Virus record (IMG/VR): IMGVR_UViG_3300009428_000009 | Location: 1-58,295 of that record | Direction: 5' to 3' (one strand) | DNA length: 58,295 nucleotides | From: a virus | In this document: positions 31,179 through 58,295 of the stretch, one piece after another | Layout: the number at the start of each line of letters is the position of its first letter | How positions within the stretch are numbered: position 1 is the first letter of the stretch | Position numbers and translations under genes: made by a program | Notes under the pieces: generated by a model | Databases searched by the model: none | Told to the model about the DNA's origin: nothing | The model's input: the letters and a program-made list of their open reading frames with translations, nothing else

Positions 31179-31856
31179 ATGCGACTATCTACACAGACAA
31201 TTGAGATTCTTAGAAATTTTGCCTCGATCAATAGTAATATTGTTATTGAAGAAGGTCAAACGATTAGAACTATTTCCGAAGCAAAAAACATTCTGGCTAA
31301 AGTTACTGTTGAAGAAACATTTCCACAAGAGTTCGGTATTTACGATCTAAGTGAATTTCTTAGCGTACTGAGATTAGTAGATGAGCCAAAACTTACATTT
31401 GCTGATAAGCATTGCGTTGTCGGTGATTCCTCAGGTCGTTCGAATATTAAGTATTTCTTTTCTGATACAGAAATGCTCACAAAAACAACTAAAGATGTTA
31501 GAATGCCAGAAGGCAATATTAAACTGACATTAGACGAAACTACACTCGGAAATGTAAAAGCTGCAGCTAGTGCGCTCGGACATTCAGAACTAGTTATTCA
31601 AGATGGTGGTGACGGTCTTGCTAAATTGACAGTAACCACGTTAGAGAACGCAACAGCAAATACTTATTCTATTGATATCCCTGCGACTTCTGATATTGCT
31701 ACATATAAGTTCGTGTATAATATTAATAATCTTAAAATTCTTACAGGAACCTACGATGTTGAAATTTCATCTAAACTAATTTCAAAACTAACTAATACTG
31801 AGAACGGACTGCAATATTGGATTGCACTTGAAAAAACATCAACTTACGGAGAGTAA
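31179..31856 (+). CDS. 45: Sliding clamp gp45
   Basis: DNA polymerase processivity clamp and activator of late transcription. The 225 residues (T4 228) start 'MRLSTQTIEILRNFASINSN' and contain 'EFGIYDLSEFLSVLRLVDEP' and 'IKYFFSDTEML' of the family, with a C-terminal 'LQYWIALEKTSTYGE'. It is in the T4 order 46-45-44-62-regA. 'TGGAGACTATATT' precedes the ATG. Several proteins in this window end in peptides that look suited to bind it. Confidence 0.95.
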   Translation: MRLSTQTIEILRNFASINSNIVIEEGQTIRTISEAKNILAKVTVEETFPQEFGIYDLSEFLSVLRLVDEPKLTFADKHCVVGDSSGRSNIKYFFSDTEMLTKTTKDVRMPEGNIKLTLDETTLGNVKAAASALGHSELVIQDGGDGLAKLTVTTLENATANTYSIDIPATSDIATYKFVYNINNLKILTGTYDVEISSKLISKLTNTENGLQYWIALEKTSTYGE

Positions 31857-41661: not shown

Positions 41662-44160
41662 TTGGCAGCTTTTTATACGAATGTAGCGCGATACGGCAAC
41701 TCACTCTTATACCGTGGTTATAACGACCACGGTGTGAGAATTGAAAAGCGTGTCAAATTTAAACCCACGTTGTTTGTGCGTAGTAAAACCCAGACAGATT
41801 GGAAATCACTTGACGGCGTTTCTCTACAACCAGTAGATTTTGAATCTATGCGTGATGCTAAAGAATGGCTAGAAACGTATAAAGATATGGATAATGTCAA
41901 AATTTACGGCAACACAAATTACATTCAACAGTTTATTGTATCTGAATTTCCTAAAGATATTCAATTCAATCGTAAACATGTGAATGTTGCAAATCTAGAT
42001 ATCGAAGTTGCGTCAGACGATGGTTTTCCAGAACCAGAAACTGCTAATTATCCTGTAATTTCGATCTGTCTGAAAAGTTCCACAAGCGAAATATATCACG
42101 TTTGGGGTCTTGGTGACTTTGATGCTGATAAGCGTGAAAATCAAGACATAATGGTTCAATACCGCAAATGTAGTAGTGAGACTGAATTACTCGCAAAATT
42201 TATGACATACTGGACAAAGAATACGCCAGACGTTATTACAGGTTGGTACATCAAAAACTTTGATATGCCGTACTTGATTAATCGTGTTGCTAAGTTAGCT
42301 GGCACAGAAGTCTCTAACAAATTCTCACCTTGGGGTCTTGTTAGCGAGAGAAATGTTACTGTCCAAGGTCGCGTTATGAAAAGCTACGAAATTACTGGCA
42401 TATCACAACTTGATTATATTGAATTGTTTAAAAAGTTTGGTTATTCTTACGGCAATCAAGCATCATACAAGTTAGATCATATTGCTAATGTTGTTCTTGG
42501 CGAAAAGAAATTGTCATATGAAGAACACGGCAATCTGCATACTCTTTATAAAAACGACCATCAACTATTCATTGATTATAACATTAAAGACGTTTGGCTA
42601 GTTGGTAAAATTGACGAAAAAATGGATTTGATTACTCTTGCGTTGACCATGGCGTACCGCGGTGGCGTGAATTATGATACGACTATGGGTACTACTGCCA
42701 TATGGGACTCTATTATCCATCGTGATTTGAATAAGAAAAATATCATTATCTCGCCTAAAGATGATAAGCACAAAACTCCTTATCCCGGCGGCTATGTAAA
42801 AGATCCACACGTTGGTGCCCATGAGTGGGTTGTTTCTTTTGATTTGAACTCACTATATCCAAGTCTAATTGTGCAATATAATATGTCACCTGAAACGCTA
42901 GTTGTTGATCCTGATGAGCGTCACCAATCTGGCGTAGAACACTATATGCACAATGCACCTAACGTCAACAAAGATTTATCTATAGCAGCCAACGGCGTGA
43001 CATTTAGTAAAGAAAAACAAGGTATTCTGCCTAAGATTATTTCCGATTATATGTTAGAGCGAAAAGCGACTAAAAAAGCAATGTTGTCAGCAATGCAGAA
43101 ACACGCAGACAATCCATCAGATGCACTTTCAAGAGAAATCAATCAACTTGAAAATCGTCAGATGGCAATTAAAATTCTACTCAATTCATTATATGGCGCA
43201 ATCGGCAATCAACATTTTCGTTACTTCGACCAGCGGATTGCCGAAGGTATCACACTCTCAGGTCAGTTATCCATTCAATGGGCTGAACGCTGCATTAATG
43301 ATGAAATGAATAAGATTTTAAAAACTGATAACACAGATTATGTTATTGCGATGGATACAGATTCACTCTATATTAACTTCGGACCATTCATCAAAAAATT
43401 AGCACCTAAAGATCCAGTAAAAGCACTTGATAAGATTTGTGCAGAGCATTTTGAAGCTGTACTTCAGAAAGGCTATGATGATCTTTTTCGACAGATGAAC
43501 GCATATACAAATCGTATGATTATGGAACGCGAAGCTATTGCAGACCGTGGTTTATGGATGGCAAAAAAGCGTTATATCTTGAATGTGCATAATAACGAAG
43601 GTGTTCAATATAAAGAACCGAAACTAAAAATCATGGGTATTGAAGCTGTAAAATCGTCAACTCCTCAAGTTGTCCGTGATAAATTTCTGCAAGTTTTTAA
43701 GATTATCATATCTGGTTCAGAAATGGATACACGAAAATTTATCAACGATTTTAAGACAGAGTTTAAATCACTGCCGCCCGAAGCAGTATCTTTTCCTCGT
43801 GGTTGTAGCGAAGTGAAAAAATATGCAGATCGTAAAACGATCTTTAAGAAAGGTACACCAATTCACGTTCGTGGCGCACTATTGTATAACAATCAAATAA
43901 AAGATAAAGCGTTAGATAAAAAATACTCTCCTATTCAAAACGGCGAAAAAGTTTTATTCAGCTATCTAAAGATGCCTAATCCAATTCGACAAAATGTTAT
44001 ATCTTTTCCAGACTATATTCCGCCGGAAATGAATTTAGCTAGATACGTTGATTATGAAACACAATTTTCTAAAACCTTTCTTGATCCTATCACACCAATT
44101 CTAGATGCTGTTGGTTGGTCTGTTGAAGAAAAAGCTACCCTAGAAGATTTTTTTGGTTGA
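41662..44160 (+). CDS. 43: DNA polymerase gp43 (family B)
   Basis: Replicative polymerase with proofreading exonuclease. Exonuclease motifs are 'VANLDIEVAS' (D-x-E), 'NFDMPYLINR' (second Asp) and 'YNIKDVWLV' (YxxxD-like). Polymerase motif A is 'SFDLNSLYPSLI', motif B 'KILLNSLYGAIGN' and motif C 'AMDTDSLYI'. A C-terminal 'TLEDFFG' corresponds to the T4 clamp-binding tail 'SLDFLFG'. The 832 residues are slightly shorter than T4 (898). The start is TTG, with 'GGAG' eight nt upstream; a nearby ATG is out of frame. Its stop lies in the -35 of the next promoter. Confidence 0.97.
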   Translation: MAAFYTNVARYGNSLLYRGYNDHGVRIEKRVKFKPTLFVRSKTQTDWKSLDGVSLQPVDFESMRDAKEWLETYKDMDNVKIYGNTNYIQQFIVSEFPKDIQFNRKHVNVANLDIEVASDDGFPEPETANYPVISICLKSSTSEIYHVWGLGDFDADKRENQDIMVQYRKCSSETELLAKFMTYWTKNTPDVITGWYIKNFDMPYLINRVAKLAGTEVSNKFSPWGLVSERNVTVQGRVMKSYEITGISQLDYIELFKKFGYSYGNQASYKLDHIANVVLGEKKLSYEEHGNLHTLYKNDHQLFIDYNIKDVWLVGKIDEKMDLITLALTMAYRGGVNYDTTMGTTAIWDSIIHRDLNKKNIIISPKDDKHKTPYPGGYVKDPHVGAHEWVVSFDLNSLYPSLIVQYNMSPETLVVDPDERHQSGVEHYMHNAPNVNKDLSIAANGVTFSKEKQGILPKIISDYMLERKATKKAMLSAMQKHADNPSDALSREINQLENRQMAIKILLNSLYGAIGNQHFRYFDQRIAEGITLSGQLSIQWAERCINDEMNKILKTDNTDYVIAMDTDSLYINFGPFIKKLAPKDPVKALDKICAEHFEAVLQKGYDDLFRQMNAYTNRMIMEREAIADRGLWMAKKRYILNVHNNEGVQYKEPKLKIMGIEAVKSSTPQVVRDKFLQVFKIIISGSEMDTRKFINDFKTEFKSLPPEAVSFPRGCSEVKKYADRKTIFKKGTPIHVRGALLYNNQIKDKALDKKYSPIQNGEKVLFSYLKMPNPIRQNVISFPDYIPPEMNLARYVDYETQFSKTFLDPITPILDAVGWSVEEKATLEDFFG

Positions 44161-47377: not shown

Positions 47378-48322
47378 ATGAGTAAAATTATAATGTACTG
47401 GTCTAATATACCAGAAAGATTCGGATATAATACTGTTGATGAATGGTCAAATAGTGAACTAAAGTTTTCATTATTACATGATTTAGTATTCAAATCACAT
47501 GAAAGATTAAACAACGATGTAGAAATATGGACTCACCAAAAAGTCACAGAGTTTTCATATGACATTAAAATCAAAAACGCCGAAGAAGTTATCTCAGCTA
47601 AAGATGCCTTCAATGCATTATCGTTTGGTCATTCAATCGCTTTTGTGTCTGACGCAGTTCGTCTTAAAAGAGCAAGTGAGACTTTAGGTATTGTACTTGA
47701 TATGGATAGTGTTATACTTAAATCTTTTCCTGAGCATGATAGTTGGTTCAGTACAATGCCGTCGAAAAAAACTGGTGGTATGGTTCCTCAGTGGGGACCT
47801 AATAAGCCTCCCATGACTGTACACGATGGATCTTGGGACGGCAAAGAACTTAGTGCATTTCCAATAAAAATTGGTGAAACGACACAACAGGAAATATCTG
47901 ATCTATCAGATAGAATAGTTGAAAAATTAAAAATTAAGCCAAAAGGCACTACGGATGAATGGAACTCTATTCTTTGGACTGTTAAAAATATTGCAAATAG
48001 AGATACTACAGCAAAGATATTTCAACCAATTTATATGAGTCCTGTTCCTGCATGGAAAGGCAGAGGCAAATGCTATACTATCGAAAGTCCAACTCGACTA
48101 GACGGTAAAACTCAGATTTTTGGACACACTATGCCTTCCATTGATGAAATTATGTCAAAATCTTACATTGTCGCACACTTCTTTGAAAGTGCTTTTCAAG
48201 ACGCAGAAATGATTAACGAAAAACTTTGGGATAACATTCCTGATGATTGTCTGTTAGCGAGAGAAATGGACTTAGTGGGATATAAAAGAAATAAACCACT
48301 TTCTTTAGACGATTTTATGTAG
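47378..48322 (+). CDS. Glycosyltransferase (GT32-like, GT-A fold) with clamp-motif tail
   Basis: The 314-residue protein has the block 'SFGHSIAFVSDAVRLKRASE', followed by 'GIVLDMDSVILKSF'. This is the S-D-x-x-R-x-x-x-L-x-x-x-G-x-x-L-D-x-D signature of OCH1/GT32-type sugar transferases, with D-x-D binding the metal and nucleotide sugar. The N-terminal 'IIMYWSNIPERFG' is also typical. The last residues 'LSLDDFM' resemble the clamp-binding tails of gp43 and gp55 here, so recruitment to replicating DNA is possible. Substrates could be DNA, surface polysaccharide or virion proteins. Confidence 0.75.
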   Translation: MSKIIMYWSNIPERFGYNTVDEWSNSELKFSLLHDLVFKSHERLNNDVEIWTHQKVTEFSYDIKIKNAEEVISAKDAFNALSFGHSIAFVSDAVRLKRASETLGIVLDMDSVILKSFPEHDSWFSTMPSKKTGGMVPQWGPNKPPMTVHDGSWDGKELSAFPIKIGETTQQEISDLSDRIVEKLKIKPKGTTDEWNSILWTVKNIANRDTTAKIFQPIYMSPVPAWKGRGKCYTIESPTRLDGKTQIFGHTMPSIDEIMSKSYIVAHFFESAFQDAEMINEKLWDNIPDDCLLAREMDLVGYKRNKPLSLDDFM

Positions 48323-48338
48323 AAGTGAGGATAGTATT

Positions 48339-48503
48339 ATGAAATTTAGTAGAAACAGTATTGGTGGTGTAAAAATTGAAATAGAAATTCCCGATGATAT
48401 CACCCTTGACGAGGTGCTTGAAGAATTTCAAAACTTTCTCCGTGCTTGTGGATACACAATTGAATATAATAAAGTTCTTGATTTAAGAGATATGGACGAA
48501 TGA
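48339..48503 (+). CDS. Small conserved phage protein (54 aa)
   Basis: A short frame with 'GTGAGG' upstream: 'VKIEIEIPDDITLDEVLEEF', then 'QNFLRACGYTIE'. The pattern I-T-L-x-E-V-L-x-x-F-x-x-F-L-x-A-C-G-Y-x-I occurs in many tailed phages beside the following protein family. The function is unknown. It overlaps the next start by ATGA. Confidence 0.68.
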   Translation: MKFSRNSIGGVKIEIEIPDDITLDEVLEEFQNFLRACGYTIEYNKVLDLRDMDE

Positions 48504-49015
48504 AAGTTAAAATTGGTGGATATCCTAATTATAGATTCTATCATAACTGGCTGTACGACTGGTTTGGGTATTCACCTAAACAGAAAACTAGCATTCGTAT
48601 AGACAGATATGATACTTGGAGTATGGACGATACTCTTGCTACTATCATCTTACCCATGCTTGTGCAACTAAAAGATACTAAACATGGCTCTCCAAATGTG
48701 GACGGCACTGATGTACCAAAAGAACTTCGTGCTACTAAAAAACAACTAGCCGCGTATGATAAAACAGGTGATGTTGATCCTAAACACTTTGAGCGTTGGG
48801 ATTGGATCATGGATGAAATGATTTGGGCATTTGAGCAGAAGTGTCGAGATAATTGGCAAGATGATTACTATGGTCCGTACATTGAAGGTGATTCTGGTTT
48901 ATTTTTAAATGGTCATTTTGAATGGCAAGATCGTGAACGCCAACAAGTACACCAACTAAGAATGACCAACGGATTTAGACTGTTTGGAAAATATTATGAA
49001 AACTTATGGGATTAG
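48500..49015 (+). CDS. Conserved phage protein of unknown function (171 aa)
   Basis: A protein family found in many tailed phages. The core is 'SIRIDRYDTWSMDDTLATII', then 'LPMLVQLKDTKHGSPNVDGT', and a C-terminal 'WDWIMDEMIWAFEQK' helix (key residues WIMDEMIWAF). A Trp/Tyr-rich N terminus 'YRFYHNWLYDWFGY' precedes it. I know of no established function. It follows the 54-residue protein by overlap, and that pair commonly travels together as far as I recall. Confidence 0.8.
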   Translation: MKVKIGGYPNYRFYHNWLYDWFGYSPKQKTSIRIDRYDTWSMDDTLATIILPMLVQLKDTKHGSPNVDGTDVPKELRATKKQLAAYDKTGDVDPKHFERWDWIMDEMIWAFEQKCRDNWQDDYYGPYIEGDSGLFLNGHFEWQDRERQQVHQLRMTNGFRLFGKYYENLWD

Positions 49016-49358
49016 ATATATGACTAATAAAGACTATGTGGTAGTAACTACAGTATCATCTTTCCGTCATCGCTATGTGATGCATAAAGATGACCTACGT
49101 AAACTAAATTCTGATGTAGAGCCGAATGACGCCGAACTTGATGATTGGGCGTCAGATACGGTCATTTGTGAAGAATGTGATGAGTTTTCTCAATATCACA
49201 TAGGCGAACAGGGATGTGATGTTTATCAATGTTCCGAGGAAGAAATGCTTACCTTATTTGATAGAGACAACGATTATCTCAGTAATTGGGAGCAAGATCA
49301 AAAAATTAAATGGGTGCTAGATAAATTACACAAGCCCAAGATAGGAACTTACAAATGA
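48996..49358 (+). CDS. Hypothetical protein with Cys-rich centre (120 aa)
   Basis: The chosen ATG starts 'MKTYGIRYMTNKDYVVVTTV', followed by 'SSFRHRYVMHKDDLRKLN', a motif seen in marine phage proteins. 'VICEECDEFSQYHIGEQGCD' contains a C-x2-C pair and a later Cys, suggesting a small metal site. It overlaps the 3' end of the preceding gene by 20 nt. The alternative start is ATG at 49020. The function is unknown. The stop overlaps the aldolase start. Confidence 0.68.
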   Translation: MKTYGIRYMTNKDYVVVTTVSSFRHRYVMHKDDLRKLNSDVEPNDAELDDWASDTVICEECDEFSQYHIGEQGCDVYQCSEEEMLTLFDRDNDYLSNWEQDQKIKWVLDKLHKPKIGTYK

Positions 49359-50182
49359 GTAAATTTATTGCAGCAATGGACCACAGTGGTGGATCAACAG
49401 GTGGAGTTTTAGAACGCTACGGACAAGAATATACTGAAGATGATAAAATGGAAAAAGTCCATGCAATGCGTATGCGTATGGTAAATAGTCCTAAATTTAC
49501 TTCAGAAAATATAAAAGGAGCAATTCTATACAAAGACACTTTAGATAGAGGTATGGCTCCGATTTTACACGCTAAACAGATACCAATTTATTTGAAAGTC
49601 GATAGCGGGTGTAATCCAGATGGAACTCTTAAAGAGTTTGATATAGATGAGATGATTCAGTTTGCGACTTCGCATGGCTGTACTGGCACAAAAATGCGAA
49701 GTATTGTCCATAGTGTTGATATGATAGCGCCCGTATTAAATCAACAGTTTAAACTTGCTAAAGAAATCGCTGAAGGATTTCTTATGCCAATTATTGAACC
49801 AGAAGTTCCTATCGATTCTCCAGATAAAGCAGAAATTGAATGGAAAATGCATGTTCAACTTAGAAATAAGTTAGATAAATTTCTTTCTAATAAAAATACT
49901 TTGGGTTTGACACGATTGTTTACGATGCTAAAGCTAACTCCACCAGAGTCTGATAATCTTTATTATGAATTGACCAAGCATTATAATATAGACAGTATTG
50001 TTGCATTGAGTGGAGGTTATTCTACAAATGAGGCATGTGAGCGTCTTTCAAAACAGAGGAACATATCTGCAAGCTTCAGCCGTGCCTTAAGTGAAGGACT
50101 ATTCCTTAGTCAGTCGGAAGAAGAATTTAATAATCGTATAAATCAGAATATAGACCAAATTTGTAGAGCGAGTGGAGGATAA
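49355..50182 (+). CDS. Fructose-bisphosphate aldolase, class I (bacterial FdaB type)
   Basis: Cytosolic Schiff-base aldolase: fructose 1,6-bisphosphate to or from dihydroxyacetone phosphate plus glyceraldehyde 3-phosphate. It aligns by eye along its length with the bacterial class I type: 'FIAAMDHSGGSTGGVLERYG', 'KGAILYKDTLDRG', 'IYLKVDSG', 'GTKMRS' (Lys113), 'PIIEPEV', 'MLKLTPPE' (Schiff-base Lys193), 'IVALSGGYST' and 'ASFSRALSEGL'. The 275 residues are slightly shorter than cellular homologues (about 295). All key motifs are intact. It heads a close-packed set with cupin, PEP carboxykinase, phosphomannomutase and nucleotidyltransferase, pointing to gluconeogenic use. Confidence 0.93.
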   Translation: MSKFIAAMDHSGGSTGGVLERYGQEYTEDDKMEKVHAMRMRMVNSPKFTSENIKGAILYKDTLDRGMAPILHAKQIPIYLKVDSGCNPDGTLKEFDIDEMIQFATSHGCTGTKMRSIVHSVDMIAPVLNQQFKLAKEIAEGFLMPIIEPEVPIDSPDKAEIEWKMHVQLRNKLDKFLSNKNTLGLTRLFTMLKLTPPESDNLYYELTKHYNIDSIVALSGGYSTNEACERLSKQRNISASFSRALSEGLFLSQSEEEFNNRINQNIDQICRASGG

Positions 50183-50186
50183 AAAT

Positions 50187-50534
50187 ATGACTATTGCAGG
50201 AAAAGTATGGGGCCAAACAGAATTGATTGAAGCAAATGGTGCATTAGAATTTCATCGTATTGAAATGGAAGGCGGCGGTGTCTGTTCAAAACATCTACAT
50301 GAGTATAAATGGAATGGCTTTTACATTGAGTCGGGAATTATGCTTGTTCGCGTCTGGCAAAATGATTATGATTTGATTGATGAAACTATTTTGAACGCTG
50401 GTGAATATACTAAAGTGAAACCCGGTGTGTATCACCAATTTGAGTGTATTGAGCCAGGCGTGGCATTTGAATTATACTGGGCAGAATTTAACCATAATGA
50501 TATTGTAAGAGAAACGATCGGATATAAGGAATAG
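50187..50534 (+). CDS. Cupin-domain protein
   Basis: Single small beta-barrel of the cupin type (115 residues). Motif 1 is 'CSKHLHEYKWNGFYIESG', with His-x-His and Glu, and motif 2 is 'AGEYTKVKPGVYHQFECIEP', with Pro-Gly and His. The layout is like the cupin part of mannose-6-phosphate isomerases and related sugar-binding cupins, but the substrate cannot be read from sequence. The ATG at 50187 follows 'GGAGG'; a GTG 15 nt upstream would place the ribosome site in the coding region. It lies between aldolase and PEP carboxykinase, so a hexose-phosphate isomerase role is a working guess. Confidence 0.75.
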   Translation: MTIAGKVWGQTELIEANGALEFHRIEMEGGGVCSKHLHEYKWNGFYIESGIMLVRVWQNDYDLIDETILNAGEYTKVKPGVYHQFECIEPGVAFELYWAEFNHNDIVRETIGYKE

Positions 50535-50537
50535 CTG

Positions 50538-51851
50538 ATGGCAAACATTAGTATCACGACAGAGCCGACAGGTAGAAGTCCAGAAAACAAATACTTCTTT
50601 GGGACAGCTACAAACGAATTATGTACTAAAAGACCAAAATATTGCAAAGTTGGTGATCCTAACGAATATAATCAATTCGCGTCAAGAATGAAATCTGAAA
50701 ATTCTACGACCAAACGTAATTTTCCTTTGTGTTTCGAGACTGCAGGTATTCGTTTCGAGGTCCATACTAATGACGAGCGCCACGAACAGTTTGTTAGGAA
50801 TATGTTTACTGTTTTGCCCCGGGGCTTTGGTCACTGGGTACCAGATTGGACAATATTACACAATACTGAAATATCAGTTCCTCATCCTAGAATTTTTGTC
50901 CACTTAGACAAAAAAGAAATGCTTATTGCAGGTACTACATTTTTGGGCGAAATTAAGAAGGGCGTATTTGGAATTGTTAGTTTTGAAATTCCAAAGCATG
51001 GCATATTGCCTATGCATTGTAGTGCGTTCACATATAACGATACAACTAATTTGATGTTTGGTTTGAGCGGCACAGGTAAAACAACATTAAGTAGTGATCC
51101 TGATTTTCGTCTAATTGGTGACGATGAAATCACTTGGGACTATTATGGTATAGAAATGATCGAAACTGGCTGCTATGCTAAAAGTGAAGGACTTTCGGAA
51201 GAAACACATAAGACAATTTATGATGCAGTAGCTCTTGCAGAGAGTCGAGAGAATCTAGTAATCGAAAACCCAGGAGTGCCTAACGCAAGACTTAGCTATC
51301 CACTAGATTGTGTTGAGAACGCCCATAGTCCAAAAGATGAGCTAGATCATCCGACTAATATTTTCTTCCTAACATTTGATGCAGAAGGTATTTTACCTGC
51401 TATTAGCAAAATCAAAGGCGACACAGTAAAATTGCTTTTCGAAACAGGATATACAAGTGTTATGCCTGGAACAGAACGCGGTGTTCGCGAAATAACAAAA
51501 ACATTTTCGCCTTGCTATGGTTCGCCGTTTATGCCGAGACCAGTTAAAGAATACAGTGAATTGCTAATGCAAAAAATCAATTCAAATGATTGCAATGTAT
51601 ATCTTGTCAACACTGGAATGAATAGTGCTGGAGAAAGATTTGATCTAAAACTTACAAGGGAAAGCATAAAGACTGCTATTGACGATAAACTAGACACTGC
51701 ATATATTAAAGTCGATGATATTAGCTTTTGCATGATTAAGTCGTTCGGAAAATATGCGTCAAGTGAGTTGATGCCTGCACATTATCAAGGCGCGGAGTAT
51801 AAAGCAAAACTGACTAGATTGATAAATGAATTGAAAGATAACAGAATATGA
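50538..51851 (+). CDS. pckA: Phosphoenolpyruvate carboxykinase (ATP type)
   Basis: Catalyses oxaloacetate + ATP to PEP + ADP + CO2. All active-site motifs of the ATP-type enzyme are present: 'TGRSPENKYFF' (Arg13, substrate), 'GEIKKGVFG' (paired Lys), 'PMHCSA' (metal His), P-loop 'GLSGTGKTTLSSDP', kinase-2 'LIGDDEITWD', 'GCYAKSEGLS' and 'PGTERGVREIT'. 'TFSPCYGSPF' and 'YLVNTGMNSAGER' also match. The 437 residues are about 100 shorter than cellular enzymes (about 530), through a trimmed N terminus and shorter segments between TGR and the nucleotide site. It is in a tight operon with aldolase and phosphomannomutase. I know of few or no phage examples. Confidence 0.93.
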   Translation: MANISITTEPTGRSPENKYFFGTATNELCTKRPKYCKVGDPNEYNQFASRMKSENSTTKRNFPLCFETAGIRFEVHTNDERHEQFVRNMFTVLPRGFGHWVPDWTILHNTEISVPHPRIFVHLDKKEMLIAGTTFLGEIKKGVFGIVSFEIPKHGILPMHCSAFTYNDTTNLMFGLSGTGKTTLSSDPDFRLIGDDEITWDYYGIEMIETGCYAKSEGLSEETHKTIYDAVALAESRENLVIENPGVPNARLSYPLDCVENAHSPKDELDHPTNIFFLTFDAEGILPAISKIKGDTVKLLFETGYTSVMPGTERGVREITKTFSPCYGSPFMPRPVKEYSELLMQKINSNDCNVYLVNTGMNSAGERFDLKLTRESIKTAIDDKLDTAYIKVDDISFCMIKSFGKYASSELMPAHYQGAEYKAKLTRLINELKDNRI

Positions 51852-52552
51852 TACACCACATTTTCGATGTTGATGGTACACTTACTCCAAGTCGTGGTAA
51901 AATAGATGAAAAATTTAGTTCGTTCTTCTTTGACTTTTGTACATTGAATAATGTATATCTTGTTACAGGTAGTGATATTCAAAAAACGAGAGAACAAGTT
52001 GGTAATGTCATTTGGGGTATAACAAAACGCAATTATCAATGTTCTGGCAACGATGTATGGGAAAGGGGCAAAAATGTTCGCAAGGGTACAATAAAACTAC
52101 CTGATACAATGTGGGGATATCTAAATAAAGAGATAACTGAAAGTGAATTTCCTGTTAGAACAGGCATTCATATTGAAGAAAGACCCGGGCTAGTAAATTT
52201 ATCTATTGTAGGCAGAAACGCAGGTCAACGCGCTAGAACTCAATATATTCATTGGGACAATCATACGAGTGAGAGAAAGAAAATAAGTGAACGATTATCA
52301 AAACTTTTCCCAGATTTTGACTTTAAACTTGGTGGCGAAACTGGCATCGATATCACTGTTAAGGGAAATAATAAATCACAAGTATTGACAGATTTTGAAA
52401 ATTGTGATATAATAAACTTCTACGGTGATAAATGCGACTTGGGTGGTAATGACCATGAGATTGCTCTTGCAGTACATGACCGCGGCGGCAAAAATGCTAC
52501 ATATCAAGTAAAAGATTGGAAAGAGACTTGGGAAATATTAAAACAAAAATAG
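51848..52552 (+). CDS. Phosphomannomutase, HAD type IIB (eukaryotic PMM-like)
   Basis: Interconverts mannose 6- and 1-phosphate. Motif I 'IFDVDGTLTPSRGKI' holds Asp7 and Asp9, motif II is 'LVTGSDIQKTREQVG', and the cap domain follows. 'QCSGNDVWERGK', 'VNLSIVGRNAGQRARTQY' and 'NFYGDKCDLGGNDHEIAL' match the PMM1/PMM2 family (N-x-S-P-x-G-R-N and F-G-D-x-x-x-x-G-G-N-D). The 234 residues are near the 240-260 usual size. The ATG overlaps the stop of PEP carboxykinase. It supplies mannose 1-phosphate for sugar-nucleotide synthesis. Trehalose or sucrose phosphatases of the same class are less likely. Confidence 0.88.
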   Translation: MIHHIFDVDGTLTPSRGKIDEKFSSFFFDFCTLNNVYLVTGSDIQKTREQVGNVIWGITKRNYQCSGNDVWERGKNVRKGTIKLPDTMWGYLNKEITESEFPVRTGIHIEERPGLVNLSIVGRNAGQRARTQYIHWDNHTSERKKISERLSKLFPDFDFKLGGETGIDITVKGNNKSQVLTDFENCDIINFYGDKCDLGGNDHEIALAVHDRGGKNATYQVKDWKETWEILKQK

Positions 52553-52959
52553 GAATTACGGCTTCAACTTTTGACCTATTACATGCAGGTCATATTGCAA
52601 TGCTTCGGGAAGCTAAGACAAAATGCAATCATCTGATCTGTGCATTGCAAGTCGATCCATCTGTGGACAGACCTAACAAGAATAAGCCCATACAAACTTT
52701 AGTTGAGCGTCACACACAACTATCTGGAGTAAAATATGTCGATGAAATTATTCCATATCAAACTGAGCAAGATTTAGAAGATATTTTGAGTATGTTTCCT
52801 ATTGACGTAAGAATAATTGGCGAAGAATATAAAAGCACTACATTCACTGGTCGTCAAATTTGCGCGGAACGCGGCATAGAAATATTTTATAATAAACGAG
52901 ACCACAGATTTTCATCTAGTGATTTGAGAAAAAGGGTACATGATGGGAAAAAGAAGTGA
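52528..52959 (+). CDS. Cytidylyltransferase-like nucleotidyltransferase
   Basis: Rossmann-like enzyme of the TagD/RfaE type that transfers a nucleotide to a sugar or polyol phosphate. It has 'GITASTFDLLHAGHIAMLRE' with the H-x-G-H motif, 'VERHTQLSGVKYVDEIIPY', 'DVRIIGEEYKS' and the closing 'RFSSSDLRKRV' (S-x-S-x-L-R). Only TTG starts are available (52528 or 52516), both inside the phosphomannomutase gene, so translation is coupled. Size (about 143 residues) matches single-domain enzymes. It may activate the product of the neighbouring mutase or glycerol phosphate; the exact substrate cannot be told. Confidence 0.83.
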   Translation: MGNIKTKIGITASTFDLLHAGHIAMLREAKTKCNHLICALQVDPSVDRPNKNKPIQTLVERHTQLSGVKYVDEIIPYQTEQDLEDILSMFPIDVRIIGEEYKSTTFTGRQICAERGIEIFYNKRDHRFSSSDLRKRVHDGKKK

Positions 52960-53473
52960 CTTTGAAAGAGTAGAAAGAGATTTTTATCCTACACCTGAGG
53001 CGGCAGTCTTGCCACTTTTGCCACACTTGCCTGAGAGTTATTTTACTTTTATAGAGCCTTGCGCTGGTGATGGTAGACTTACAAAACATTTGCATTTTAA
53101 TATGGATTGTAAATCGTTATCAAATACAGATATAGAACCTAGAGTTGATTGGGTAAAACAAAAAGATGCATTTGATATATTGATTGATGATAATGTAGAT
53201 TATGTAATAACTAACCCACCTTGGAATAGAAAATTTCTACATCCATTTATAGAGTATTTTGCGCCAAAGCGTCCAACTTGGTTGCTATTCGATGCTGATT
53301 GGATGCATACAAAGCAGAGCGAACCTTATATGAAAATGTGTTCTAAGATTGTAAGTATAGGTAGGGTCAAGTGGATAGAAGGAAGTAAGAGTGTTGGTAA
53401 AGACAATTGTTGCTGGTATCTATTTCAAGAAAAAGCACAAAGAACACAATTTTATGGTAGACAATCATTATAG
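52940..53473 (+). CDS. DNA N6-adenine methyltransferase-like protein
   Basis: SAM-dependent methyltransferase of the phage Dam-like type. It starts 'DFERVERDFYPTPEAAV' (the D-x-Y-P-T-P entry), has the SAM loop 'FIEPCAGDGRLTKHL' and the catalytic 'VITNPPWNRKF' (N-P-P-W). The 177 residues form a minimal catalytic domain without target-recognition domain. It overlaps the nucleotidyltransferase by 20 nt. It probably methylates phage DNA for protection, alongside possible glycosylation. The C-terminal part contains the -35 of the uvsX promoter. Confidence 0.85.
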   Translation: MMGKRSDFERVERDFYPTPEAAVLPLLPHLPESYFTFIEPCAGDGRLTKHLHFNMDCKSLSNTDIEPRVDWVKQKDAFDILIDDNVDYVITNPPWNRKFLHPFIEYFAPKRPTWLLFDADWMHTKQSEPYMKMCSKIVSIGRVKWIEGSKSVGKDNCCWYLFQEKAQRTQFYGRQSL

Positions 53474-53486
53474 AATATGCTATAAT
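53458..53486 (+). promoter_or_regulatory. Sigma70-type promoter for uvsX
   Basis: TAGACA, 17-bp spacer with extended TGC, TATAAT. The -35 is within the last codons of the methyltransferase; the uvsX ATG follows 26 nt after the -10. Confidence 0.82.
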
Positions 53487-53511
53487 GGCAAAATAAACAC
53501 AGGAGAATTAT

Positions 53512-54561
53512 ATGTCGGTAATGGACAAACTCAAAAAGAACTCAAAACTAAAGAATACTGAAGTTCTTTCGGAGTCTAAATTTTTTAATAATAAAGAGAA
53601 AGTTTCAACATCTGTACCTATGATCAATGTTGCACTTTCTGGATCAGTAGATGGTGGTCTTACTCCCGGACTGACGGTACTTGCTGGACCATCTAAACAT
53701 TTTAAAACTTCATTCACGCTGCTAATCGCTGCAGCGTATCTAAACAAGTATCCTGATGCTATCATGCTATTCTATGATTCAGAATTTGGCTCACCAGCTT
53801 CTTATTTTGAGCAATTCGATATTGACACGACTCGCGTTCTGCATACACCAATTACCAATGTCGAAGAATTGAAATTTGATCTCATCGGTCAGTTAGAAGG
53901 TCTAGACCGCAAAGATCGTGTTATAGTTGTCATTGACTCTATCGGCAATCTTGCATCTAAGAAAGAAATGGAAGACGCAATCAACGAAAAATCTGTGGCT
54001 GATATGTCACGGGCAAAAGCACTCAAGGGTCTATTCAGAATGTGTACGCCATATCTTGCTATGAAAGATATTCCTATGATTGCAGTCAATCACACATACA
54101 AAGAAATTGGTTTGTTTCCTAAAGATATTGTATCAGGTGGCACAGGCATTTATTACAGCGCAAATAATATTTGGATCTTGGGACGCCGTCAAAACAAGAA
54201 AGGTACTGAGATTCAAGGCTATGACTTTGTTATCAATGTTGAAAAATCTCGGTTCGTCAAAGAAAAATCTAAGATACCAATCAGTGTAACGTGGGAAGGT
54301 GGAGTAGCTGCTTGGTCTGGACTATTAGAGGTCGCACTTGCTGGAGGCTATGTTGTTAAGCCGAGTAATGGCTGGTATAGTTCTGTCGATATGTCAACGG
54401 GTGAAGTATCAGAAAAGAAAGTACGCGAAGCAGGCACACTGGAAGAAGATTTCTGGAAACCTATTTTTGATACTACAGATTTTGCAGAATTTATCAAAAA
54501 ACAGTATACTATTGGTCACCAGACAGAAGTAGATTTTGATGATTTGTTAGAAGGAGAATAA
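53512..54561 (+). CDS. uvsX: Recombinase UvsX (RecA-like)
   Basis: Forms filaments on ssDNA for strand exchange in recombination-dependent replication. It matches T4 UvsX: 'ESKFFNNKEKVSTSVPMINV', 'VLAGPSKHFKTSF' (Walker A, G-P-S-K-x-x-K-T-x), 'FYDSEFGSPASYF', 'VVIDSIGNLASKKE' (Walker B), 'DMSRAKALKGLFRM', 'NHTYKEIG', 'GGTGIYYSANN' and 'VEKSRFVKEKSKIPI', ending in an acidic tail 'DFDDLLEGE'. The 349 residues are slightly shorter than T4 (391), mainly in the acidic tail. 'AGGAGAATTAT' precedes the ATG. Confidence 0.97.
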   Translation: MSVMDKLKKNSKLKNTEVLSESKFFNNKEKVSTSVPMINVALSGSVDGGLTPGLTVLAGPSKHFKTSFTLLIAAAYLNKYPDAIMLFYDSEFGSPASYFEQFDIDTTRVLHTPITNVEELKFDLIGQLEGLDRKDRVIVVIDSIGNLASKKEMEDAINEKSVADMSRAKALKGLFRMCTPYLAMKDIPMIAVNHTYKEIGLFPKDIVSGGTGIYYSANNIWILGRRQNKKGTEIQGYDFVINVEKSRFVKEKSKIPISVTWEGGVAAWSGLLEVALAGGYVVKPSNGWYSSVDMSTGEVSEKKVREAGTLEEDFWKPIFDTTDFAEFIKKQYTIGHQTEVDFDDLLEGE

Positions 54562-54562
54562 T

Positions 54563-54874
54563 ATGGCTATAACTTCACATTTGATCGAAAACGATCACTA
54601 TGAATTGGTTCCGTCGAAAGAGTCTGACGATGCATGGAATATTAGATTTTTGAAAGGGGACTACGTTGAAAGCGTAGTCTCCATCGGAACTATTAAAGTT
54701 GGTGAAGAAATTCCAGGTGGAGATGATCATCAACTTACGTTTGATTTTAATGTTTCGTATTCTCCTGACGATACTCTTACTGAGGATGATGAAGATTTTC
54801 AAGAGTACGTTGGTAAAATTTTACTGCATATTATAGAAGATAGTATAAAAAGATCAGAAAATAAGGTTGACTAA
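54563..54874 (+). CDS. Conserved T4-like hypothetical protein (103 aa)
   Basis: Small beta-rich acidic protein: 'DHYELVPSKESDDAWNIRFL', 'KGDYVESVVSIGTIKV', 'LTFDFNVSYSPDDTLTEDDE', then a C-terminal helix 'LLHIIEDSIKR'. Proteins with the same 'HYEMVP...AWNVRILKGDF' pattern follow uvsX or precede replication genes in many T4-like marine phages, by recollection; the function is unknown. It starts one base after the uvsX stop. Confidence 0.72.
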   Translation: MAITSHLIENDHYELVPSKESDDAWNIRFLKGDYVESVVSIGTIKVGEEIPGGDDHQLTFDFNVSYSPDDTLTEDDEDFQEYVGKILLHIIEDSIKRSENKVD

Positions 54875-54895
54875 ATTACCTATATAGTATATAAT
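54867..54895 (+). promoter_or_regulatory. Sigma70-type promoter for the GREB1-like glycosyltransferase
   Basis: TTGACT, 17-bp spacer, TATAAT; the TAA stop of the upstream gene begins at the last base of the -35 hexamer. The next ATG follows 30 nt after the -10. Confidence 0.85.
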
Positions 54896-54924
54896 GTAAG
54901 AATATCAGCAAGAGGTATTATTGA

Positions 54925-55875
54925 ATGACTAACCCAGACTATCCAGTTTACATCATATCTAAGGGTCGATCTGATTCGATGGTAACATCCAGATCACTCG
55001 CCCGTATGAAAATCCCACATTATATTGCAATTGAACCTCAAGACGAGGACGATTATAAAAAATCACTAGATGTATTTGCAATTAGGGACTATGTTACATT
55101 ATTGATTGCTCCGTTCTCAAATCACGGTGACGGACCCGGTCGCGCTAGAAACTGGTGCTGGGATCATTCAATGACTTTAGGTTTTGAACGTCATTGGGTA
55201 CTAGATGATAATATATCTGACTTTTACAGATTACACGAAAACAAACGTATTAGAGTCGAGACTGGTGCAATATTTAAAGCAGCGGAAGAATTTACAGATA
55301 GATACACTAACGTCCCTATCTCTGGTTTTCAGTATCGTTTCTTTATTGCGCCAAATCAAAAGTATCCCGCTTTTGTTAAAAACACAAGAATTTATTCATG
55401 CTTATTAATTGCAAATGATTGCAAGCATAGATGGCGCGGAAGATATAATGAAGATACTGATATTTGCTTGCGAGTACTGAAAGACGGTGACTGTACTATT
55501 CAATTCAATGCTTTCATGCAAGGCAAGTTAGCTACACAAACACTAAAGGGTGGCAATACGGCAGAATTTTATCATGTTGAAAATACAGATCAGAAAAGTA
55601 TCGTGACAGGTAAAGATTTGAATGATACTGGCTATAATAGCTTAGGCACTGCTAATAAATCTCAAATGCTAGTTGATATGCATCCAGACGTTGCTAGAAT
55701 AGCTTGGAGATATGGTCGCTGGCATCACTATGTAGACTACTCTCCTTTTAAAAAGAATATGTTAAAATTTAGAGAAAACTATGTGCCCATGAGCGGCAAT
55801 AACGAATACGGTCTTAAACTTGTGAGTGATGAAAAATATAAACTCCGAAACTATAAAGGAAAGAAGGATGTGTGA
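54925..55875 (+). CDS. GREB1/TAGT-like DNA glycosyltransferase candidate
   Basis: The 316-residue protein is of the GT-A-like family linked to TET/JBP base-modification systems in phages (GREB1 C-terminal type). The signature is 'PVYIISKGRSDSMVTSRSLA', then 'YIAIEPQDEDDYK', 'GPGRARNWCWDHSMTLGFER' and the metal site 'HWVLDDNISDFYRLHENKR', then 'RGRYNEDTDICLRVLKDGDC' with the second acidic motif (E-D-T-D). Known or proposed relatives attach sugars to hydroxymethylated bases. No TET or hydroxymethylase gene is in this window. The 3' end overlaps the next small gene. Confidence 0.78.
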   Translation: MTNPDYPVYIISKGRSDSMVTSRSLARMKIPHYIAIEPQDEDDYKKSLDVFAIRDYVTLLIAPFSNHGDGPGRARNWCWDHSMTLGFERHWVLDDNISDFYRLHENKRIRVETGAIFKAAEEFTDRYTNVPISGFQYRFFIAPNQKYPAFVKNTRIYSCLLIANDCKHRWRGRYNEDTDICLRVLKDGDCTIQFNAFMQGKLATQTLKGGNTAEFYHVENTDQKSIVTGKDLNDTGYNSLGTANKSQMLVDMHPDVARIAWRYGRWHHYVDYSPFKKNMLKFRENYVPMSGNNEYGLKLVSDEKYKLRNYKGKKDV

Positions 55876-56146
55876 TTTTATCAGCGATACTGTGGTACAA
55901 GATAAAAATAGAAAGTTCTTTCAACCAGATTGTGATATTTGCGGAAAACCAAATGCAGCCCAACAACTTAATGGAGACTGGGCTAACGACATTAAATATG
56001 GATCTCCTAGATGGCGTATTTATGTTGATCCTTTAACAAAACAAAGATATCATGCGTGTGGTTGTTGCCATGAACTTATTCGACCTGGTAATAAACCAAC
56101 AGATACAATAGTACACTGGAAAGAGGTAATTAATAATGTCAGATGA
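55868..56146 (+). CDS. Small zinc-ribbon-like protein (92 aa)
   Basis: Starts at 'MCDFISDTVVQDKNRKFFQP' with 'AAAGGAAAGAAGG' upstream. It has a C-x2-C knuckle 'CDICGKPN' and a second cluster 'HACGCCHELIRPGNKPTD', together a likely zinc site. It overlaps the glycosyltransferase 3' end and the next start. The function is unknown; a zinc-binding helper of the surrounding DNA-modification genes is possible. Confidence 0.68.
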   Translation: MCDFISDTVVQDKNRKFFQPDCDICGKPNAAQQLNGDWANDIKYGSPRWRIYVDPLTKQRYHACGCCHELIRPGNKPTDTIVHWKEVINNVR

Positions 56147-56471
56147 TAAAAAAGTAGAAGAATCTGGACAATATGATAATTTTATGGATCATATGGGCGA
56201 AACAATAGCAGGCACTGCCTCACTTGCAGATTTTGTCGATATTGAGGATAATCGTGACAACTGGGAAAAACACTGGGTTGGTATGCCCACTTATACTCAG
56301 GAACATAATAAGACATATAAAACTGTTATGATGCATTTTCGTAATGCTGAAGATTATAAAGAATATTGTGATTTGATTGGTCAAGCCATGACTATGAAAA
56401 CGAAAAGTGCATGGTATCCCGCATTAGACCGTGAAGCAAATAGTCTACTACGTTGGATAGAAGATGATTGA
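56136..56471 (+). CDS. Conserved protein related to ParB-associated domains (111 aa)
   Basis: Contains 'NWEKHWVGMPTYTQEHNKTY', then 'TVMMHFRNAEDYKEYCDLIG' and 'AMTMKTKSAWYP'. The pattern W-x-G-M-P-x-[FY]-x-Q, H/R-F-x-x-x-E-D, and T-x-K-T-K-S-x-W-[YF]-P recurs in phage and plasmid proteins, often fused to ParB-like nuclease domains; here it stands alone. It lies between the two glycosyltransferases of the modification region and overlaps both neighbours. Confidence 0.7.
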   Translation: MSDDKKVEESGQYDNFMDHMGETIAGTASLADFVDIEDNRDNWEKHWVGMPTYTQEHNKTYKTVMMHFRNAEDYKEYCDLIGQAMTMKTKSAWYPALDREANSLLRWIEDD

Positions 56472-57318
56472 AAAGATTTATATACCTACTGTTAAACGAG
56501 TAGATAATCAAATAACTTATAATTGTCTCTCAGATTCTTTAAAAAAACGTGTTGTTTTTGTAGTACAAGCTTGGGAAAGAGAACAATACAAATATGATAC
56601 AGAATATCTAGTTTTACCAGATTGGCTAACATATAAGCATCCACACGCTATCGCAGAAACTAGGAATATAATATATCAACACGCTAAAACTAGCAAATAT
56701 ATGATGGCAGACGATGATATGGTTATTGTCAGAAGAAATCAAAAATATTTTGGATTACCGTCTAATATGGAAAAAGCAAAACGAATAGCCACTCTAGATG
56801 ATGTGGATTATCTTTTTGCAAACGCATCAAAAATCTTAACTGATAATAATGATGCTTGTTACTTAGGAGTTTCTTCGGAAGCTTTTGCTCCTCCACCACA
56901 AGCTATTACAAAACTTCAGGCTATTTATCAAATTTGGTTTATAGACGGAAACAAATTATATGATACATTTTGCGACAATAAAAAATTATTGTCAAGCACA
57001 ATGCATACTTCGGACGATACTCTTTTTAACATAGTCATGGCTACAAATGGCAAAGCTGGTTGGAAAATGAACGATTTTTGCGCTAAAAACAAAAGTGTCG
57101 ATAAAAAAGCAAATATTGGTTCTGTTCTATGGGATAATAATAAAGACGATCAATCCCGACAAGATCAGCGTCTTTTAGCTGAAATGTATCCAAAATATTA
57201 TAAGATAAAAGACGATGCTGCACTGGCATATAGAGGGTTAGTACTAAAGGCTAGGTTCGAATATAAAAAAGCTTATGTCGATGCACACGCCTCGAAATTA
57301 GACGATTTTCTATCTTGA
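56464..57318 (+). CDS. Glycosyltransferase-like protein with clamp-motif tail
   Basis: The 284-residue protein has a GT-A-like N-terminal pattern: 'IYIPTVKRVDNQITYNCLSD' (I-P-x-x-x-R), 'VFVVQAWEREQYK', 'KHPHAIAETRNIIYQHA' (x-G/A-I-x-x-T-R) and metal site 'YMMADDDMVIVRRN' (D-D-D). This is similar to phage proteins grouped with TET/JBP-associated transferases. The C terminus 'SKLDDFLS' closely resembles the gp55 tail 'SDLKDFLE' and gp43 'TLEDFFG', so clamp binding is predicted. T4 alpha-glucosyltransferase has been reported to bind gp45. The substrate is unknown. The stop lies in the gp41 promoter -35. Confidence 0.7.
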   Translation: MIEKIYIPTVKRVDNQITYNCLSDSLKKRVVFVVQAWEREQYKYDTEYLVLPDWLTYKHPHAIAETRNIIYQHAKTSKYMMADDDMVIVRRNQKYFGLPSNMEKAKRIATLDDVDYLFANASKILTDNNDACYLGVSSEAFAPPPQAITKLQAIYQIWFIDGNKLYDTFCDNKKLLSSTMHTSDDTLFNIVMATNGKAGWKMNDFCAKNKSVDKKANIGSVLWDNNKDDQSRQDQRLLAEMYPKYYKIKDDAALAYRGLVLKARFEYKKAYVDAHASKLDDFLS

Positions 57319-57343
57319 CCTCTCGTAAAAAATATAGTATAAT
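57315..57343 (+). promoter_or_regulatory. Sigma70-type promoter for gene 41, -35 containing the upstream stop
   Basis: TTGACC, 17-bp spacer, TATAAT; the TGA of the glycosyltransferase gene is within the -35. The gp41 TTG follows 24 nt after the -10. Confidence 0.85.
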
Positions 57344-57366: not shown

Positions 57367-58295
57367 TTGAGTAATATAGAGCAAGTAATTCTAAAAAACA
57401 TCCTTACTGATGAACAGTATATGAGAAAAGTTTTGCCGTTCGTGCAAGTGGAATATTTTGAGGGTGTTTATAAAACTCTGTTTGTCGAAATTGGTAAATT
57501 TGTTGCAAAATATAATAAATTACCTACAGCAGAAACTTACAAAATTCAGCTAGACGAATCTGGTTCTTTGACTGAAGAAAACTATAATCAAGCGATAGAA
57601 GTAATACCACAACTCTTTGATAAAGAGAAATCAGACGAGGAATGGCTTTTAGATCAAACTGAAAAGTGGTGTCAAGACAGAGCATTATTCAATGCGGTTA
57701 TGGAGTCGATCAGTATTATTGACGGCAAACATAAGTCACTCACTAAAAACGCACTACCCGAGATTTTGACAAAAGCTTTAGGCGTTTCATTTGATACGAA
57801 TATCGGACACGACTATTTGGCAAACTTTGCTGAAAGATATGAGTTTTATCATCAAGATGAAGAAAGACTGCCGTTCGATCTTGAATATTTCAATATCATC
57901 ACGAAGGGTGGTCTACCAAGAAAAACACTAAATATTATTCTCGCAGGCACTGGTGTTGGTAAATCTCTGTTTATGTGTCACCAAGCAGCGGCAGCATTAA
58001 CAGATGGTAAGAATGTATTATATATCACAATGGAAATGGCAGAAGAACGCATTGCAGAACGTATTGACGCAAACTTGCTAAACGTACCTATCGCGGATCT
58101 CACAGAATTGAGTAAAGAAAATTTTGCAGAGCGCGTTGCGAATATCTCTAAAAGAACGAACGGTAAACTAATCGTAAAAGAGTATCCTACAGGTCAAGCA
58201 AATACTGCACACTTTCGAAATTTGCTGGGCGAATTAAAACTGAAAAAATCGTTTGTGCCTGATATTGTCTTTATTGATTATCTAAATATATGTGC
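57367..58295 (+). CDS. 41: Replicative DNA helicase gp41 (DnaB-like), 3'-truncated
   Basis: Hexameric 5'-3' fork helicase. The frame runs off the right edge. It starts at TTG ('MSNIEQVILKNILTDEQYMR') with 'GAAGGAAATAA' upstream. Recognisable parts are 'EKWCQDRALFNAVMESISII' (T4 'EKYVQQRAMFNA'), 'ALGVSFDTNIGHDYL', 'ITKGGLPRKTLNIILAGTGV' leading into Walker A 'GTGVGKSLF', 'VLYITMEMAEERIAERIDAN' and 'LIVKEYPTGQAN', with Walker B 'DIVFIDYLNIC' at the edge. About two thirds of the protein are present. Confidence 0.95.
   Translation, partial: MSNIEQVILKNILTDEQYMRKVLPFVQVEYFEGVYKTLFVEIGKFVAKYNKLPTAETYKIQLDESGSLTEENYNQAIEVIPQLFDKEKSDEEWLLDQTEKWCQDRALFNAVMESISIIDGKHKSLTKNALPEILTKALGVSFDTNIGHDYLANFAERYEFYHQDEERLPFDLEYFNIITKGGLPRKTLNIILAGTGVGKSLFMCHQAAAALTDGKNVLYITMEMAEERIAERIDANLLNVPIADLTELSKENFAERVANISKRTNGKLIVKEYPTGQANTAHFRNLLGELKLKKSFVPDIVFIDYLNIC

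Follow-up and report, generated by a model that had tools for sequence, protein, structure and literature searches.

The DNA analysed here (58,295 bases; hereafter the window) is the IMG/VR virus record IMGVR_UViG_3300009428_000009, which has no end repeats and is classed as linear, often the mark of a fragment. It runs from neck, tail and capsid genes through to replication genes, and stops inside gp41. Its gene content indicates that it is a fragment of the genome of an uncultured marine T4-like phage with a bacterial host. By polymerase, the nearest named genome was that of Phage C48C1 (Kyanoviridae, 156 kb, circular), the gp43 proteins being 58.4% identical. The present analysis deals with a group of probable glycosyltransferase (GT) and sugar-metabolism genes in the replication region, read in an initial annotation as a self-supplied DNA glycosylation system coupled to the replisome; the open reading frames (ORFs) named there were all present where it had placed them. 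The gene order is gp43, helicase-HNH, MazG, primase, 47378 (ORFs without a name are designated by their first position), three small ORFs, aldolase, cupin, phosphoenolpyruvate carboxykinase (PEPCK), phosphomannomutase (PMM), nucleotidyltransferase, a methyltransferase-like gene, UvsX, 54563, TAGT1, 55826, 56136, TAGT2 and gp41, most of these genes overlapping or lying a short gap apart. The T4 map order is gp43, imm, 42, b-gt, segA, uvsX, 40, 41. The transferase and sugar genes of the window occupy the slot that T4 gives to gene 42 and b-gt (gp43-uvsX-gp41). The stretch from primase to UvsX in C48C1 contains genes for a nucleotide-sugar epimerase and a UDP-glucose dehydrogenase.

Two of the genes code for glycosyltransferases of the TAGT family (PF20691, gathering cut-off 27.5 bits), namely TAGT1 (54925..55875, + strand; 152.5 bits) and TAGT2 (56464..57318, + strand; 44.5 bits). 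The initial annotation had described them as TAGT-like and GT-like, respectively, and both scores bear this out. TAGT1 was found in 24 phage records at E 1e-5, the best match (51.8% identity) being a phiAS5 protein annotated 'beta-glucosyl-HMC-alpha-glucosyltransferase', and had 328 relatives in IMG/VR. It contains DDN at residue 94 and DTD at 177, which we take to be acidic motifs of the GT-A type. In TAGT2 an acidic motif of this type, D83-D84-D85, was invariant in 15 of 15 aligned proteins. The best 80 of the 328 TAGT1 relatives and the best 80 of 155 for TAGT2 were kept. The third gene, 47378 (47378..48322, + strand), codes for a probable glycosyltransferase with a DxD motif at residues 108–110; D108-M-D110 was invariant in all 11 aligned homologues. 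Neither TAGT2 nor 47378 matched any of 50,697 phage records, and PDB sequence searches with 47378 (as a profile) and TAGT1 returned no significant match. For the transferases, PADLOC yielded no informative result. In relatives, the 47378-type and TAGT2 genes each adjoin TAGT1 and 56136; since its DxD is invariant and its homologues lie in this setting, 47378 was taken to be a transferase.

The product of 56136 (56136..56471, + strand) matched no Pfam family above cut-off, and was recognised as a partner protein from fusions in relatives. Its domain makes up the N-terminal portion of 22 TAGT proteins, including those of Aeh1, PTm1 and phage 65, and the C-terminal portion of the ParB_N proteins of loci L019-L022 (ParB_N E 4.3e-10, run on L019), so the earlier label 'ParB-associated' was kept. 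An AlphaFold model of 56136 was unusable (predicted local distance difference test score, pLDDT, 53).

Both 47378 (C-terminus PLSLDDFM) and TAGT2 (C-terminus ASKLDDFLS) end in a short peptide (SLDDFM and KLDDFLS) resembling the ends of the phage's own DNA polymerase gp43 (41662..44160, + strand; ATLEDFFG) and of its gp55-like late sigma factor (27628..28224, + strand; SDLKDFLE; 58% identical to a C48C1 protein annotated 'late sigma transcription factor'). Both are canonical clamp clients, gp55 serving as a positive control. T4 gp43 and gp55, which end SLDFLFG and SLDFLYEAND, are binders of the sliding clamp gp45. For T4 gp55, a role of the C-terminus in clamp binding has been described (PMC2988020). 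The presumed docking partner in the window is a gp45-like sliding clamp (31179..31856, + strand), identified from homologues at the gp45 place in relatives; its C48C1 counterpart is annotated 'DNA polymerase processivity factor'.

The motif [LIM]..F[FLMIYV] was looked for within the last nine residues of 65 non-overlapping window ORFs. It was present in six: gp55, gp43, 47378, 56464, the antisense ORF 31861 and the 73-residue ORF 41386, the last two being judged spurious. A first count over 127 loci found it in 86 of 1741 ORFs. The count was refined to ORFs of at least 100 residues with complete ends, identical 12-residue tails being counted once. Among distinct tails the motif then occurred in 13/14 for gp43, 6/22 for gp55, 13/14 for 56464-type and 4/7 for 47378-type proteins. 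It occurred in none of the 367 tails of other identified families (a group without the gp43 and gp55 controls and without ORFs of no assigned family), and in 12 of 563 tails of ORFs of no assigned family. For the two tailed transferase families pooled, 17/21 versus 0/367 gives a Fisher p = 3e-26, and when tail residues were shuffled the motif appeared in about 0–1%. Fifteen aligned TAGT2 proteins (mean column identity 57%) all had L279 and F282 in the tail. The initial annotation had noticed that two of the transferases end in a clamp-like motif, and the controls show this to be far beyond chance. As judged from sequence, the tails of 47378 and 56464 are real examples of the peptide type in which the polymerase and late sigma factor of this phage end, and they would be expected to bind gp45.

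The same type of tail was present on enzymes that modify DNA in related phages. In C48C1, the C-terminus is ISLEEFFV in a Tet_JBP protein (PF12851, E 3.3e-17) and STLDAFFG in a D12 adenine methyltransferase; in L028, an N6_N4 methyltransferase ends PLKEFLD. All 15 of the relatives of the C48C1 Tet_JBP protein had an L[DE]xFF end (one gene was broken), but, since many are near-identical, these do not amount to 15 independent events. An amino acid:DNA transferase (ADDT) gene and a P-loop kinase gene adjoin Tet_JBP in L149, L153 and L156 (Pfam run on L149 and L156), and the L149 and L153 clusters also include an acetyltransferase-like protein. An ADDT was found in all seven IMG/VR Tet_JBP contigs tested (7 of the 24 records searched), in every case (7/7) with a related tail; C48C1 has none. 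Contig G047 (153.9 kb) has 165 ORFs of 90 or more residues, and seven of them carry the relaxed motif; five of the seven are gp43, gp55, Tet_JBP, ADDT and the acetyltransferase-like protein. The tailed Tet_JBP and ADDT of L156 occupy the slot used by the window, with primase on one side and UvsX on the other.

A different tail was seen in Ackermannviridae. In Vi01, GG32, Klebsiella Madison, Serratia 2050H1 and Dickeya Kamild the polymerase ends in approximately NLLSMM or NLLAMM, and the 5-hydroxymethyl-dU (5-hmdU) DNA kinase 2 protein and the ADDT have similar tails (NLMSLLKR, SLLGLMRKA etc.); the neighbouring genes inspected lacked a polymerase-like tail. In Vibrio phages 1.244.A and K471, RKLW is the C-terminus of the polymerase, and KRLW, RKLW or KKLW that of the kinase, ADDT and HMUDK_hel protein (Pfam names from 1.244.A). 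These seven Ackermannviridae are not a random sample, six coming from one homology listing and GG32 from another. In Kuja, the polymerase ends TKLW and the two TAGT proteins have no such tail. Three tail types shared with a polymerase can thus be told apart: SL-x-x-FF in this T4-like clade, NLLSMM in the five enterobacterial phages and RLW/KLW in the two Vibrio Ackermannviridae. We read the enzyme tails of the Ackermannviridae as following that of the cognate polymerase. The loci concerned are L312 (5001-7693), L313, L309, L311, L307, L310 and L314.

The sugar genes of the window (all on the + strand) form an operon-like run. It begins with a class I fructose-bisphosphate aldolase-like gene (49355..50182; PF00274, E 2.1e-5; NF003784, E 3.6e-71, below its equivalog cut-off), in which MLKLT presumably holds the Schiff-base lysine, and a cupin gene (50172..50534; PF07883, E 4.3e-7). 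They are followed by an ATP-type PEPCK of 437 residues (50538..51851; PF01293, E 7.7e-95; PDB 6at3, E 3.3e-62). This protein keeps the P-loop, metal and substrate motifs (GRSP, KKG, MHCSA, GLSGTGKTTLS, IGDDE, TERG) and is shorter than the cellular enzymes, scoring 284 bits with NCBIfam pckA against a cut-off of 590. A close search found phage PEPCK genes at two loci in IMG/VR, in addition to contigs G054 and L028; of the matches in the phage collection, one lay in a 636-kb uncultured phage record and the others were mostly judged to be in bacterial-looking records. Next come a PMM-like HAD protein of eukaryote type (51848..52552; PF03332, E 6.1e-24; phrog_29277, E 1e-76) and an RfaE/TagD-type nucleotidyltransferase with HAGH and SSSDLR motifs (52516..52959; Pfam CTP_transf_like, PHROG and NCBIfam). 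The resemblance of the latter to the RfaE domain and TagD makes ADP- or CDP-linked products possible.

In locus L046, whose TAGT1 is 74% identical to that of the window, cupin, aldolase, PMM and nucleotidyltransferase genes again adjoin TAGT2 and TAGT1. Contig G054 (151 kb) holds all the same genes. There, PMM, TAGT1, 56136 and the nucleotidyltransferase lie together with gp43-UvsX, and aldolase (103.8 kb), TAGT2 (131.7 kb) and PEPCK (139.7 kb) lie apart. Given these positions, we place more belief in the link of the transferases with PMM and the nucleotidyltransferase than in that with PEPCK and aldolase. The cassette combines central carbon metabolism with a single activating enzyme and falls short of a full pathway to a nucleotide sugar. 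The self-supply proposed in the initial annotation therefore stands as to the contiguity of the cassette in the window, but is weakened by the arrangement in G054 and by the incomplete pathway; supply of the sugar by the phage is possible.

The families of these proteins, their tails and the conservation of the tails, the synteny and the fusions were observed directly. From them we infer that the tails bind the clamp and that DNA is the acceptor of the transferases, as well as the order of transfer and the identity and supply of the sugar. The explanation we favour, and consider fairly probable, is a module of a T4-like phage, built round the replisome, in which glycosylation of DNA is tethered to replication. 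This is suggested by the tails on the transferases, by the DNA enzymes of relatives and by the covariation in Ackermannviridae. The C-terminal peptides of 47378 and 56464 presumably dock onto the gp45 clamp, as would those of the polymerase and the late sigma factor, and the two enzymes would ride the clamp and place sugar on freshly copied DNA. The same DNA would be the substrate of the tailless TAGT1 with its partner 56136, which may add a second sugar in the manner of the T2/T6 TAGT. PMM and the nucleotidyltransferase would help to supply the activated sugar, and aldolase and PEPCK may feed hexose phosphate. On sequence grounds, DNA glycosylation by the window module is likely but unproven. 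As for the initial annotation, the coupling to the replisome is now better founded, given the conserved tail on 47378- and 56464-type enzymes and on DNA-modifying enzymes of relatives, and the T4 42/b-gt slot; the wider proposal is partly supported, by gene content and the clamp motif but not by any base-hydroxylating enzyme.

Parts of this arrangement are known from other phages. Like T4, the window would have a phage DNA transferase associated with the sliding clamp, and its genes occupy the gp43-uvsX slot in which T4 has its glucosyl-hydroxymethylcytosine genes (42 and b-gt); it differs in that two other families are tailed and no gene 42 was found in it. For the association of T4 alpha-glucosyltransferase with the clamp, PMC13216743 and PMC6024577 cite Sommer 2004. 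According to PMC13216743, this enzyme co-purifies with gp45 in pull-downs and beta-glucosyltransferase does not, and the second glucose in T2/T6 is added by TAGT. By Pfam (PF20691), 54925 and 56464 belong to the family of the T2/T6 beta-glucosyl-HMC-alpha-glucosyltransferase, 54925 being about 50% identical to the Aeh1 and phiAS5 proteins; unlike the T2/T6 system, 56464 has a clamp-type tail and the 56136 partner gene close by. Mosigvirus and RB69, which make 5-arabinosyl-dC, likewise have two transferases, one inside a sugar-gene cluster, and one report lists isomerase, epimerase, kinase and NTP-transferase genes in Mosigvirus clusters, along with a 5-hodCMP synthase (PMC13390438; the RB69 system is covered by PMC6024577). 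The cassette genes of the window are different, and a synthase of that thymidylate synthase (TS)-superfamily type was found neither in it nor in the 20 contigs described below. A deoxypentose modification is described for Thanatos in another paper (PMC12838424). Tet/JBP-ADDT hypermodification (of the ViI and M6 type, and phage TET) is approached by the sister lineage (C48C1 and L142-L156), which has the same tail, and by L156, which uses the same slot; the window itself differs in having no Tet_JBP and, among the 45 distinct proteins scanned with Pfam, no ADDT match.

Several observations weigh against replisome-tethered DNA glycosylation, among them that the enzyme placing an acceptor hydroxyl on the base is the missing piece of the module. 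The initial annotation had named as refuting evidence the lack of any base-hydroxylating or hydroxymethylating enzyme in the genome, and in part this was found. A search of the whole record detected no TS-superfamily hydroxymethylase (PF00303, phrog_160) and no Tet_JBP (PF12851), an absence that is not absolute because the window is a fragment. In the 20 contigs with a 56464-type transferase (22–172 kb, one of them of 171 kb), neither PF00303 (0/20) nor Tet_JBP (0/20) scored over cut-off. Matches to phrog_160 occurred in 9 of 39 records, namely eight cultured phages and one contig with a genuine thymidylate synthase. The transferase 47378 matched nothing in Pfam (to E 0.1), PHROGs or NCBIfam, and its AlphaFold model, made with 11 sequences, was poor (pLDDT 57.6; best PDB fold match E 0.48); because a profile match is missing, yet the DxD is invariant, the earlier designation 'GT32-like' is plausible but unproven. 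Conservation of the tail has its limits. A wider TAGT2 profile search found the relaxed motif in 33 of 53 distinct tails and the strict one in 21 (LEDLF and LEHLF ends were left uncounted, and one tally counted 82 ORFs with repeats); the first set had 13/14 (strict). A tail retained by every 56464-type enzyme was thus ruled out. In L019-L021, where the partner has a ParB domain, the complete 47378-type proteins stop before the tail. None of the 52 distinct TAGT1 tails of the first set had the motif, and one of 38 did in the second; tethering of TAGT1 by such a tail was also rejected. Further, T4 alpha-glucosyltransferase is of the GT-B type and binds gp45 without a C-terminal gp43-type motif, so use of such a peptide by this enzyme was discarded; the source ascribes the predominance of alpha-glucosylation in T4 mostly to expression, clamp binding not being its main determinant (PMC13216743). 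G054 has PEPCK and aldolase at a distance from the transferases; it also encodes several further glycosyltransferases that lack tails, making virion or surface glycosylation by such phages also possible.

With regard to the missing step, the Tet_JBP model did detect the C48C1 protein in a search over 50 records, in which PF00303 matched 8. On reading of the sequences, most PF00303/phrog_160 proteins are thymidylate synthases of the ordinary kind; in phage 65 and Kuja they resemble hydroxymethylases to our eye, though PDB searches with them rank thymidylate synthases first. The second copy in PTm1 is about 40% identical to a Thanatos protein annotated deoxycytidylate 5-hydroxymethyltransferase. 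Some cultured phages thus have both a TAGT1-type enzyme and a candidate for base hydroxylation; among the relatives of the window no such co-occurrence was visible. Past gp41, the contigs of close relatives showed no hydroxylase that we recognised, and had a protein that we read from its sequence as ThyX-like. A Pfam scan of 34 otherwise unlabelled proteins of G054 gave three 2OG-FeII oxygenase matches, of other families, which are candidates only.

The absence of a base-hydroxylating enzyme from the window and from the contigs with 56464-type transferases would be accounted for if the tailed transferases rode the clamp to glycosylate a protein at the fork (clamp, polymerase, nucleoid or defence protein), since protein hydroxyls need no such enzyme. 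This is unlikely in our estimation: TAGT relatives of known chemistry act on DNA, according to two reports (PMC13216743, PMC13390438), the sister lineage has the same tail on DNA-base enzymes, and the partner domain is fused to ParB. Decoration of virion proteins or the host surface, with the location in the replication module an accident of gene order, seems slightly less probable again. G054 possesses GT25, PLOD-type and other glycosyltransferases, so such phages do glycosylate things, and sugar-nucleotide genes differ among relatives; but the tailless enzymes of G054 sit outside the replication module, TAGT1 excepted, and virion glycosylation would not select for polymerase-matching tails on 56464- and 47378-type enzymes. 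That these tails are a functionless resemblance due to chance or composition we regard as very improbable. The motif is short and occurs now and then in ORFs of no assigned family, but its complete absence from the comparison group, its rarity in shuffled tails, the invariant L and F, and the Ackermannviridae enzymes, which follow the different tail of their own polymerase, all speak against it.

A separate question is whether the aldolase-cupin-PEPCK-PMM-nucleotidyltransferase run belongs to the module at all, or is an auxiliary cassette of central metabolism (rerouting host carbon by gluconeogenesis) that has no dedicated tie to the glycosylation of DNA. The latter is a serious possibility, only a little short of evenly balanced. 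In G054 kilobases of DNA separate the transferases from PEPCK and aldolase, the transferases of L010-L018 have other neighbours, and a nucleotide sugar is not a product of PEPCK or aldolase. Against it stand the recurrence of four of the five genes beside TAGT2 and TAGT1 in L046, the overlapping or nearly touching genes of the window cassette, and the position of PMM and the nucleotidyltransferase near replication genes even in G054.

Returning to replisome-tethered DNA glycosylation, the tails may reflect a general rule, which we hold to be reasonably probable: phage enzymes that remodel DNA after its synthesis (sugar transferases, Tet/JBP dioxygenases, hydroxymethyl-dU DNA kinases, ADDTs and some methyltransferases) would adopt the clamp tail of their own polymerase and so carry out hypermodification at the fork, the acceptor in the lineage of the window coming from an unknown hydroxylase. 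No report of polymerase-type tails on phage DNA-hypermodification or Tet enzymes was found among the papers listed for such enzymes together with sliding clamps in the open-licence PMC literature (preprints excluded). If the tails bind the clamp, exotic DNA would be produced in step with replication, so that restriction or CRISPR enzymes would meet little unmodified DNA, and polymerase-matched tails would provide a simple sequence handle for new DNA-modifying enzymes in uncultured phages. The 56464-type contigs of near-genome length that lack a known base hydroxylase are a pointer to undiscovered acceptor chemistry.

Some further loci were noted. In uncultured T4-like phages, L149 (9935-14682) and L156 (7335-11193) contain the Tet_JBP - ADDT - P-loop kinase cluster, where hypermodification would apparently proceed by oxidising the finished base and not via a hydroxymethylated nucleotide. 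In C48C1 (L125, 38604-42048) the tailed Tet_JBP gene is followed by one for an uncharacterised 344-residue protein and then by UDP-galactopyranose mutase, a run that suggests a base bearing galactofuranose. Contig G054 contains, shortly upstream of its PEPCK gene, a 121-residue protein whose end, ASLENFFG, is a tail of the clamp type (L261, 5970-6332). It also has an unusual region (L255-L257, about 29–60 kb) with radical-SAM-like cysteine motifs (CxxxCxxC-type, by our own reading) and 2OG-FeII oxygenases amid tail-fibre-region genes.

Among the remaining genes of the window's replication region, UvsX (53512..54561, + strand), a landmark of the T4 replication module, was confirmed by Pfam as the initial annotation had it. 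The replicative helicase gp41 (57367..58293, + strand), identified from homologues in relatives, is incomplete at the window end. The gene described earlier as a DNA methyltransferase (52940..53473, + strand) codes for a short methyltransferase-like protein of 177 residues with an NPPW motif; it matches phrog_799 (E 1.1e-33), but covers only positions 200–370 of the 458 in that profile. Between gp43 and MazG (44228-46051) lies a gene for a helicase-like protein with a C-terminal HNH domain.

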